From Sphingomonas daechungensis (lineage in GTDB: Bacteria; Pseudomonadota; Alphaproteobacteria; Sphingomonadales; Sphingomonadaceae), in contig NZ_CP060780.1 of assembly GCF_014489495.1 (NCBI RefSeq), positions 2,429,001 to 2,493,000 on the forward strand: a stretch of 64,000 bases of DNA. The letters run 5' to 3'. Below the pieces are notes generated by a model, which saw only the letters and a program-made list of their open reading frames with translations, was not told the DNA's origin and ran no database searches. How positions within the stretch are numbered: the stretch's first letter is position 1; every line of letters begins with the position of its first letter. Made by a program: the position numbers and the translations under genes. This document shows positions 14,831 through 21,110 of this stretch, piece after piece.

Positions 14831-15501
14831 AGTTCGATGAGCTTGTCCGGAATCTCGTTGGTATCGGTGGCGGAACGCGGGAAGTGCTCGGCAAGCACCG
14901 CACCGACCCGCTCGATGGCCGCCACGATCCCGTCCGCGGGCCTTCCAGCCTTCACGCCTTCGAGAAGAGCAGCCATCGCCTCGCCCCAAGTCTCCGGCGT
15001 CGTGACCTTGAGGATAGCTTCGTCGGCGACAATCTCGGCGCGCCGCTCGCCCATCGAAAGATAGATGAGGATGCCGGTGCGGCCGACGGTCCGGCGCTCG
15101 GCGCCCGCCTTGAACACCGAAATCGCCCGACGCCGCACCCGCCGGGTCTTGGTCGCTCCAGGCGTCAACGCCAGTCGCAGCGGCATGTACTTAAGGATGA
15201 GAAGGACCGCGGTGAACTTCAGCACCGCCAGGATCATCAGGAATGTCAGCAGCTCGCGAAGCGTCGATTCCGGCCGCCACGACCCGAGGAAGACGTCGAG
15301 CCACCATTCGAGTCCCCACGGCCAGATCGCCGCCCAAGCGAGCACTGCGATCAACGCCAGCACCGCCCAGTGCAACGCGACATCATGATAGGAATCGCTG
15401 AGCGGCGTCGCGGCCGCGATGATCTCGCCATCGCTCTTCGCCTCCGCCGCGGCAATCGCCGCGCTGACCCGCGAATGATCCTCTTCGCTAAGTTGCAGCA
15501 T
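14827..15501 (-). CDS. TPM-domain membrane protein, second of pair
   Basis: Start ATG 15501 lies inside the stop of the upstream gene (TGATG). The 224-residue product lacks a signal peptide. It begins MLQLSEEDHSRVSAAIAAAE with a TPM-type alpha/beta start, has two central transmembrane helices (VALHWAVLALIAVLAWAAIW and LTFLMILAVLKFTAVLLI), then a TPM phosphatase-like segment (VGRTGILIYLSMGERRAEIV, ADEAILK). Proteins of this layout (COG3762) occur next to LemA and YgcG-like proteins. Envelope homeostasis is the only role that can be inferred. Confidence 0.85.
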   Translation of the reverse strand: MLQLSEEDHSRVSAAIAAAEAKSDGEIIAAATPLSDSYHDVALHWAVLALIAVLAWAAIWPWGLEWWLDVFLGSWRPESTLRELLTFLMILAVLKFTAVLLILKYMPLRLALTPGATKTRRVRRRAISVFKAGAERRTVGRTGILIYLSMGERRAEIVADEAILKVTTPETWGEAMAALLEGVKAGRPADGIVAAIERVGAVLAEHFPRSATDTNEIPDKLIEL

Positions 15502-16363
15502 CACCAGCTTCCCCCTGCGCCGCCGCCGCCAAAGCCGCCTCCGCCACCGGAGAAGCCCCCGCCTCCGCCGAACCCGCCGCCGCCGCCAAAGCCGCCTCCA
15601 CCGCCCCAGCCACCGCCGCCGCCCAGCCGCCACGATTGCGCGACCCGCGGCTGAGCTCATTGAGGCCCCACAGCACAATCAGGGATCGATTCCGCCACGG
15701 CGGCGGCGATAGCGCCGTCCGCTCATGCCGCGCGAAAGCGAACCGATGATCACGAAGAAAATGACGACGATAAAAATGACCGGGATGAAACCCGCGCCGC
15801 CGCTCCGCCGCTGACTCTCCTGCTGGCGGCCTTGTCGATGTTGGCCTGCGCCTGGTCGGCCGGAAGCTCCATCTGCTTGATGATGGCGTCCGCCCCGCGG
15901 TTATTCCCGCGCCATAGTCCGGCGGGTTCTTCTTGAATTCCGGAAGGATCTTCTCGCGAACGATCACGCCGGACATCGCGTCGGTCAGGAACCCTCCCGC
16001 GCCATAGCCGGTGGTGATCCACACCTTCCGCTCATTCGGTGCGACGAGGAGGATGACACCGTCATCCTCCTTGGCCTGGCCAATGCCCCACCTGCGGCCG
16101 AGCTGGTAAGCGTAGTCCTCGATCGGCAAGCCATCGAGGCTCTTCACCGTCGCGACCACGAACTGCCGCCCGGTCTGTGCTTCGAGCGTCTGCGACTTGC
16201 TCGAGATGTCGAGTTCCTGCTCCGGACGAAGCAGCTCTGCCTGGTCGACCACGCGGCCGGTCAGCTTCGGAAAGTTCTGCGCCGAAGCTGGCGCTGCCCA
16301 CAATACTAACACCGTCATTGCGAGCGCAGCGAAGCAATCCAGAAGCTTCCGCTGGATCGCCAC
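15501..16363 (-). CDS. YgcG-like TPM-domain protein with Gly-rich tail (four frame breaks)
   Basis: Begins at GTG 16363; its first 20 or so codons are supplied by a palindromic repeat. A signal peptide (KLLDCFAALAMTVLVLWAAP, ending ASAQ) is followed by the TPM domain: KLTGRVVDQAELL, GRQFVVATVKSLDG, YAYQLGRRWGIG, DDGVILLVAPNERKV and GYGAGGFLTDAMSG. Restoring one base near each of 15894, 15823, 15681 and 15622 gives GADAIIKQMELP, a transmembrane helix (FIPVIFIVVIFFVIIGSLS), LIVLWGLNELSRGSRNRGG and a tail of repeated GGGGF/GGGGW units ending GAGGSW. The repaired length of 288 residues and the coupled stop at 15501 support the repair. Confidence 0.82.
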
Positions 16364-16387
16364 GTCGCTACGCTCCTCGCGATGACG
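16313..16387. repeat. palindromic intergenic repeat, family B, copy 1
   Basis: A 75-bp element starting CGTCATTGCGAGCGCAGCGA and ending CTCCTCGCGATGACGG, with imperfect arms that pair end to end. It matches copy 2 at 21036-21110 over most of its length. It lies between lemA and the YgcG-like gene and extends into the coding sequence of the latter, providing its GAGGAG ribosome-binding site, GTG start and signal-peptide codons. Confidence 0.85.
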
Positions 16388-16397
16388 GGTCAGTGGA

Positions 16398-16994
16398 TCA
16401 GCTCGCGTTGAAGTTCACCGATGGCGCAGCTTCCGCGCCTGCCGCCGCCTGAAACGGCACCTTCGGCTTGGCGCCATAAAAGATCTTGGCGCCGATCGCG
16501 TCCGGGAACGTGCGGATGCGGGTATTATAGGCCTGCACCGCCTCGTTATAGTCGCGGCGCGACGCGTTGATGCGGTTCTCCGTGCCTTCCAGCTGATCCT
16601 GCAGCGCGAGGAAGTTCGTGTTGGACTTCAGGTCGGGATAGGCTTCCTGCAACCGCTGCAGCGGGATGATCGCCTGCGTCAGCCGGTTCTGAGCCTCGTT
16701 GAACGCCTGCACCTTGGCAGGGTCGCTAAGGTCGTCCGCGCTGAGCTGGACGCGGCCGGCATTGGCGCGGGCGTTGGTCACCTCGACCAGCACCGATTTC
16801 TCCTGTTGAGCGTATCCCTTGACGGTCTCGACCAGGTTCGGGATCAGGTCCGCGCGCCGCTGATAATCCGCCTGCAGGTCGCCCCACTTCGCATTTACGT
16901 TCTCCTCTGCAGTCGGAACGCTGTTGAGCCCGCACCCGGCAAGGCTGAGAGCGGCAAGTGGAGCGAGAAGACCAAATCGACGCAGTGCGGTCAT
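16398..16994 (-). CDS. lemA: LemA-family lipoprotein
   Basis: Start ATG 16994 is preceded by AGGGGAAAC. A 22-residue lipoprotein signal ends in the lipobox LAGC. The LemA domain follows: VNAKWGDLQADYQRRADLIP and NLVETVKGYA (the characteristic four-helix start), then VTNARANAG, FNEAQNRLTQAI, LKSNTNFLALQDQLEGTENR and the C-terminal RRDYNEAVQAYN. Family members anchor in membranes with coiled helices; biochemical activity is unknown. The 198-residue frame is intact. It heads the lemA-TPM-TPM-NUDIX gene set. Confidence 0.92.
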   Translation of the reverse strand: MTALRRFGLLAPLAALSLAGCGLNSVPTAEENVNAKWGDLQADYQRRADLIPNLVETVKGYAQQEKSVLVEVTNARANAGRVQLSADDLSDPAKVQAFNEAQNRLTQAIIPLQRLQEAYPDLKSNTNFLALQDQLEGTENRINASRRDYNEAVQAYNTRIRTFPDAIGAKIFYGAKPKVPFQAAAGAEAAPSVNFNAS

Positions 16995-21035: not shown

Positions 21036-21110
21036 CGTCATTGCGAGCGTGGCGAAGCAATCCAGACGTTGGCTGCATTGCCGCGTCGCCTGCGGCTCCT
21101 CGCAATGACG
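21036..21110. repeat. palindromic intergenic repeat, family B, copy 2
   Basis: A 75-bp element beginning CGTCATTGCGAGCGTGGCGA and ending CTCCTCGCAATGACGG, the same boundaries and arm order as the copy at 16313-16387. It lies between the tmRNA terminator and the lipoprotein gene, with no coding overlap. Confidence 0.85.

Follow-up and report, generated by a model that had tools for sequence, protein, structure and literature searches.

A dispersed palindromic repeat appears to supply the start codon and first half of a predicted signal peptide at the lemA–TPM junction of Sphingomonas daechungensis

The export signal predicted for a YgcG-like TPM-domain protein of Sphingomonas daechungensis is a composite of repeat and non-repeat DNA. 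About 28 residues long, it takes 17 from a palindromic repeat, termed F1, and 11 from non-repeat DNA. F1 is dispersed in the genome and recurs at the same junction in related species, where its start codon, frame and one otherwise variable codon are conserved beyond the level of copies elsewhere. We consider it probable that repeats lying past the lemA stop codon have been kept where they lengthen the N-terminal half of the signal or take its place, and that F1 was captured in this way. The window referred to below is the whole stretch of DNA analysed, 64,000 nucleotides of contig NZ_CP060780.1.

Results

Organization of the junction in the window

The features of the junction are listed in order of coding, followed by a second F1 copy that served as a control.

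16398..16994, minus strand: lemA, upstream gene of the presumed operon (Pfam PF04011, E 5.7e-52), its start assigned by judgement at MTALRRFG
16313..16387, minus strand: F1-type palindromic repeat, 75 bp, two CGTCAT-headed monomers head to head (sequence reading, RNA fold, genome copies)
16353..16387, minus strand: F1 left monomer of the CATCGC / GTGGCGATCCA subtype, holding the ribosome-binding site and start codon (1 mismatch to pattern)
16373..16378, minus strand: GAGGAG, Shine-Dalgarno-like, within the repeat (direct reading)
16361..16363, minus strand: predicted GTG start codon within the repeat (first in-frame ATG, GTG or TTG past the lemA stop)
16313..16363, minus strand: 17 repeat-derived codons, VAIQRKLLDCFAALAMT, forming the n-region and first half of the h-region (direct reading)
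16313..16340, minus strand: F1 right monomer, read in frame as the hydrophobic (L)DCFAALAMT (exact pattern match)
16280..16312, minus strand: 11 non-repeat signal codons, VLVLWAAPASA, with an A-x-A motif (sequence reading)
16279-16277, minus strand: expected mature N-terminus, Gln (sequence comparison)
15893..16252, minus strand: TPM domain of the predicted exported YgcG-like protein (Pfam PF04536, E 3.1e-37)
21036..21110, minus strand: second F1 copy in the window, used as a control; it is intergenic, ahead of a lipoprotein-like ORF, and has no in-frame start

The lemA stop codon occupies 16400-16398, and 34 nt separate it from the repeat GTG. Direct reading of the minus strand bears out the original prediction that the repeat enters the coding region with GAGGAG, a GTG nine bases on and the VAIQRKLLDCFAALAMT codons, which terminate exactly at the repeat edge, 16313. 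The same prediction held that the repeat forms the charged start and hydrophobic core of the signal; this is accurate for the n-region and the first half of the h-region, and the rest of the core is non-repeat. It also placed the mature protein directly after the repeat, an error of 11 residues, as VLVLWAAPASA, with the remaining hydrophobic core and the A-x-A motif, intervenes before the conserved mature start, QNFP. These 11 non-repeat residues led us to reject the repeat as the entire signal peptide.

By sequence, the composite has the features of a Sec (SPase I) signal: a positive n-region (Q-R-K ahead of the core in the window, net +1), a hydrophobic core and an A-x-A motif before the predicted mature start. 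An Asp, as in LDCF, is unusual within a signal-peptide core.

The predicted RNA fold of the repeat with short flanks (16300-16395) reaches -55.7 kcal/mol, against -31.9 +/- 3.3 for shuffles (z -7.2). GAGGAG and GTG are partly paired inside this hairpin, so initiation would be expected to suffer unless translation of lemA unfolds it; our guess is that translational coupling to lemA, with its stop 34 nt upstream, would free the TPM start.

Separately, the TPM reading frame is broken 3' of the TPM domain (15490-15900) by small length differences relative to S. sediminicola, most of which lie within or next to G or C homopolymers; the N-terminus is untouched. These breaks may well be sequencing errors, the assembly being 86.6% complete.

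F1 as a dispersed repeat

A right-arm pattern allowing at most 3 mismatches gave 17 matches in the 3.0-Mb window genome, 12 forward and 5 reverse, and none with the reversed control pattern, in agreement with the earlier description of F1 as a dispersed element. For comparison with the copies at the TPM gene, we assembled 58 full-length control copies outside it, from the window genome and its relatives. These comprise 13 of the 16 non-TPM matches in the window genome (three with 2-3 mismatches were left out), 21 right-arm matches, one beside the TPM gene of G010 and 23 found by protein search; five F1 copies without a recognised left arm were left out. The controls range from 66 to 89 bp. Where the window TPM copy has GACGTGGC, 41 of the 58 have GACGAAGC or GACGCGGC, and a single one has GACGTGGC.

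In most F1 copies the right arm reads as (L)DCFA-LAMT, and the repeat is thus hydrophobic in its own right. This lends something to the view that a common repeat happens to sit at the junction by chance, where any hydrophobic frame suffices. Against it, only one of 63 F1 copies elsewhere (L129) leads, in a frame of more than 100 codons, into a strongly hydrophobic N-terminus, and a recognised repeat is present at 17 of the 55 junctions that lack an extra gene, though each family has at most tens of copies per genome. We therefore regard chance placement as very improbable. A 29-residue F1-signal query against 71 genomes of the genus returned only the TPM gene at E < 1e-6 (8 matches), the query being biased towards that gene by its TPM-like tail.

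Two further observations concern the ends of the repeat. About 10 nt past several window-genome copies (L003, L008, L079 and the copy at 21036) lies a GCTAGCG-like or GCTAACG-like sequence, perhaps a piece of a longer repeat unit. Read outward, the CGTCAT head becomes ATGACG (Met-Thr), whose ATG in several copies resembles a start codon for the gene that follows. The candidates are a GidA-family gene beginning MTQTFDIHIIGGGLAG (L124, match 1501 onward), an aminotransferase-V gene (L120), a gene for an AMP-binding enzyme (L298), an ORF without a Pfam match (L135) and a DUF4893 lipoprotein-like ORF (L129); we take the GidA-family gene to be TrmFO-like and the aminotransferase-V gene to be kynureninase-like.

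The junction across the genus

A TPM match was found in 68 of the 71 genomes, and their lemA–TPM junctions were read and classed by eye. F1 occupies ten of the 68: the window genome (G000), G038, G055, G054, G061, G060 (split over two contig ends, L016 and L067), G030, G028 and, in decayed form, G036 and G037. A second family, F2 (PAKAG...PAFAGMT type), is present at five junctions and a third, F3 (SEGWHP...SLRWGD type), at two. Both are dispersed, with 9-45 matches per genome in the five F2-junction genomes and 39 and 26 in the two F3-junction genomes. Another 34 junctions lack both an extra gene and any recognised repeat; in 23 of them, 61-64 nt lie between the lemA stop and the mature Gln, with a plain signal such as VTRFLAVMLLALVALAAPASA. 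Four junctions are odd or doubtful.

In the remaining 13, lemA and the TPM gene are separated by an extra gene (L011, L043, L045, L047, L049, L054, L057, L060, L061, L064, L066, L070 and L073), which itself matches TPM in L011, L057, L060, L061, L070 and L073. F2-type repeats were matched in 37 of the 71 genomes, and a Y1-type (RAYT) transposase in only three.

The nearest relatives of the window genome are S. sediminicola (G034) and G069, the latter with an extra gene between lemA and TPM. S. sediminicola has no repeat at the junction and an ordinary signal, VTRFLAVMLLALVALAAPASA, with a GTG 1 nt past the lemA stop. That ordinary start is gone in the window, where the first in-frame start lies inside the repeat. 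Comparison with the N-termini of repeat-free orthologues had been named in the original prediction as a possible refutation; the differing N-terminus found there supports capture instead. The presence of F1 in the same place and frame in nine other species, and of other repeat families there, is likewise in keeping with the proposal that the repeat was captured as a putative export signal. A single recent insertion specific to the window genome was rejected on the same nine species.

Start codons of repeat-bearing genes

In-frame starts were located relative to the lemA stop in the F2 and F3 genomes and in nine of the ten F1 genomes. All seven F2 and F3 genes have an in-frame ATG between -1 and +10 nt from the stop. 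Among the F1 genes, two of nine have an in-frame start near it (a GTG at +1 in G038 and upstream TTGs in G054), and these could be real starts. F1 thus seems to carry its own start, and F2 and F3 to sit behind a resident start as an in-frame n-region.

The alternative is that translation begins upstream or downstream of the repeat GTG, the repeat being a longer n-region or non-coding. The F2, F3, G038 and G054 starts favour it, and many REPs at 5' ends may be non-coding, with translation starting downstream, according to the available excerpts of Di Nocera 2013 (PMC3733652). In the opposite direction, seven of the nine F1 genes have no upstream start. Reading of the window found no in-frame ATG, GTG or TTG between the lemA stop and the GTG at 16363, and the next start downstream, an ATG at 16318-16316, leaves 13 residues before Gln. 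Thirteen residues is short for a signal peptide. We judge a start other than the repeat GTG to be improbable, and initiation at that GTG the most likely reading.

Conservation of the encoded peptide

Three features distinguish the TPM copies of F1 from copies elsewhere, in Fisher tests that take related species as independent. An in-frame start at least 4 codons ahead of CTG-GAT is present in 10/10 TPM copies and 14/58 controls (7e-6), and a length divisible by three in 10/10 and 24/58 (9e-4); the 23 protein-search controls favour in-frame copies, so their bias runs against the frame and start tests. At a freely varying right-arm codon, Ala is encoded in eight of ten TPM copies and in 23 of 118 listed arms elsewhere (1.7e-4), the others that are not Ala including Ser (37), Thr (28), Pro (24), Leu (5) and Gly (1). 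The 118 arms are listed copies with at most one mismatch from six genomes (G010, G000, G028, G036, G037 and G038). For G038 they are the best 12 of 20, four further genomes are not among the sources, TPM copies were left out, and so was one G036 copy with a shifted arm (118 of 119).

The spacing behind F1 is also constant. Exactly 12 codons, counting the mature Gln, separate the repeat end from that residue in all ten F1 genes, against 16-20 in the F2 and F3 genes (20 in F3), whose arms are less hydrophobic. The constant 12 codons fit a core whose length is fixed, with core residues replaced by the F1 arm but not by the F2 and F3 arms. All ten F1 signals have A-x-A. Their best 12-residue hydropathy is 2.13-2.90, compared with 2.32-3.18 for 20 ordinary signals picked among the 34 junctions. 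The net charge preceding the core is +1 in seven F1 signals and 0 in three, compared with +1 or +2 in all 20 ordinary ones.

Individual genomes also bear signs that the peptide is what is retained. In G036 and G037 the palindrome is largely decayed, with start, frame, core and A-x-A still present. G028 has GTC at the old GTG start position, and the GTG of the repeat is now ATG. The TPM copy is the sole one with a CATCGC-type left arm, at most 3 mismatches allowed, in G028, G030 and G060.

These data also bear on a possible RNA role, in which the repeat would be retained because it shields the 3' end of the lemA transcript or lowers translation of TPM. The coding overlap of the repeat would then be a by-product, tolerated because lemA and TPM abut and signal peptides accept nearly any hydrophobic sequence. 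REPs are found between co-directed genes near the 3' end of the upstream ORF, according to excerpts of PMC3733652, several unrelated palindromes occupy this junction, and a strong hairpin is predicted in most F1 genes, not significantly weaker than in copies elsewhere (mean dG/nt -0.50 at TPM against -0.57, p 0.13). Conservation of the start codon, frame and Ala codon above the level of copies elsewhere runs counter to such a role, as does retention of the signal in G036, G037 and G054, where palindromes are decayed or weaker. Moreover, none of the 34 repeat-free junctions, at which the operon is kept, passed an ungapped inverted-repeat test that also misses F1, its arms being out of register. 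We view an RNA role as the doubtful option, and retention as part of the signal as the preferred one.

Descent of the F1 copies

The CATCGC subtype accounts for 9/10 F1 copies at the TPM gene and 5/58 elsewhere. Sharing of this rare subtype suggests one old insertion followed by losses or exchange, and the F1 genes are then not independent events. On an RpoB tree of 62 genomes, from which G055, G060 and others without a usable rpoB were left out, the pattern of the eight F1 genomes takes 7 changes, of which starred branches force at least 5, and a single gain needs 11 losses. On a LemA+TPM tree, the ten need 9 changes (at least 7). Many independent gains of F1 are not claimed here, the changes on the trees being offset by the common descent, with losses or exchange, that the shared subtype suggests. 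Three families share the junction, and it seems that the TPM gene has acquired repeat-derived parts of its putative export signal on more than one occasion.

Other repeats and other genera

Caulobacter and some further Sphingomonadaceae have palindromes of other types at the junction. Among 80 loci, four Caulobacter records (L195, L203, L206 and L219) and a MAG (L171) have CCTCCCCCGC-type palindromes in frame behind the start; the inverted-repeat script supports those in L171 and L206. Pattern counts exceed the reversed control in the L171 genome (143 against 62) and show no excess in the four Caulobacter genomes (53-96 against 56-100). We therefore do not treat the CCTCCCCCGC type as a proven dispersed family and leave it as probable.

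In other genera of the family, strong inverted repeats occur at four of 22 direct junctions (L303, L311, L317 and L320), drawn from 26 loci with lemA upstream, and one was seen by eye in L321. A GAGCCTGTCGAAG-type repeat is present at the junction of L317 and L321, two other genomes of the family. The Sphingobium junctions examined span 61-94 nt and have ordinary-looking signals.

A 50-residue query containing the F1 signal was run against 397 Sphingomonadaceae genomes, no fewer than 11 of which belong to the genus; among the matches listed, only the window aligned from residue 1 (88%). No F1 arm was found in the 14 listed rows reaching residues 2-7, the best having 9-12 mismatches of 27 set positions and the script not locating the N-terminus in four of the 14. 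With F1 confined to the genus among the matches listed and other palindromes present elsewhere, the site, not one repeat, is what stays constant.

Discussion

A model of repeat capture

The following model would account for these observations. A dispersed head-to-head repeat, F1, probably related to CGTC-tagged REP dimers, would have inserted just past the lemA stop, at a point where the TPM gene begins at once. In doing so it would have displaced the start codon that the TPM-domain protein used before, together with the N-terminal half of its signal peptide. Translation would most likely start from the left-arm GTG with GAGGAG as its ribosome-binding site. The positive residues would come from the loop and the first half of the hydrophobic core from the right arm, with the old second half of the core and its putative A-x-A cleavage site retained. 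Purifying selection may since have maintained the start, frame and hydrophobicity. In relatives, other repeat families at the junction would act as in-frame extensions of the n-region behind the resident start codon.

A broader reading, to which we give even chances, is that the alphaproteobacterial lemA–TPM junction acts as a trap that has repeatedly turned unrelated palindromes into parts of signal peptides. F1 would then be a portable export cassette, comprising ribosome site, start, charged n-region and core, selected as a peptide after the palindrome and its sister copies decay.

The junction offers a clean case of selfish-looking intergenic repeats that now seem to be part of a working protein feature. 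It comes with built-in controls, namely sister species that differ in having the repeat, several repeat families sharing one site and numerous non-coding copies. The long-standing question of whether palindromic repeats inside genes are tolerated or used thus becomes directly testable. For annotation, it is a warning that REP-derived starts, whether a GTG within an arm or an ATG-ACG at the end, may be real.

Comparison with known systems

CGTC-tagged REPs, as described in the available excerpts of Di Nocera 2013 (PMC3733652), are mostly head-to-head dimers, common in alphaproteobacteria and often found directly past stop codons, with some at the N-termini of ORFs. F1 resembles them in its CGTC head, AT-first arms, CCA tail, head-to-head dimer form and position past a stop. 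Its monomers run CGTCATCGC...GCGATCCA and CGTCATTGC...GCAATCCAG, with the CGTC end, AT-first stem and CCA-like tail of the excerpted definition, and the dimer form is found in many copies (58 non-TPM two-arm copies in the window genome and relatives). Unlike F1, REP monomers in that description fold alone into an 8 or 9-bp stem with a 4-5-nt loop. Folding gave no such stem for the left F1 monomer (z 0.19) and a 5-bp outer stem for the right (z 0.23). Having the head, tail and dimer form but not the monomer stem, F1 is termed REP-like and is not filed as a CGTC-tagged REP. The F2 and F3 consensus monomers agree with the CGTC-1 REP type as excerpted, with an 8-bp stem, 4-nt loop and CCA tail (z -4.1 and -5.0). 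A search of the window genome (86.6% complete) for a Y1-type tyrosine transposase (PF01797) gave no match, and a RAYT was accordingly set aside as the mover of F1. The excerpts of PMC3733652 make no mention of signal peptides of the F1 kind or of the lemA–TPM junction.

A closer precedent is RU-2, a 168-bp enterobacterial element in the predicted signal peptide of YPO1552, whose homologues in other genera have unrelated signals (Delihas 2007, PMC2759123, in the parts available). That case, so far as those parts describe it, involves one 168-bp family without a comparison to non-coding copies, whereas here 75-bp repeats of several families occupy one junction in many species. Unlike the RU-2 case as presented there, the start, frame and Ala of F1 are conserved beyond copies elsewhere.

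The original prediction likened F1 to Rickettsia palindromic elements (RPE; Ogata 2000, 2002, as cited in the excerpted PMC10969869), which lie in frame inside protein-coding genes. The likeness is apt as an analogy, drawn from lengths and descriptions and not from RPE sequence: F1 too is a palindromic repeat retained in frame within a coding gene. By the same excerpt, RPE are about 150 bp long and form peptide insertions in many unrelated genes, whereas F1 is 75 bp and replaces or extends the predicted export signal of one gene.

In the open-access literature, as far as its accessible text extends, RU-2/YPO1552 was the repeat-derived signal found, with nothing on the lemA–TPM junction. Palindromic repeats within coding genes and signals are thus already known from RPE and RU-2, as those sources describe them; what looks new here is their recurrence at one junction, the involvement of several repeat families, a start apparently donated by the repeat and the comparison with non-coding copies.
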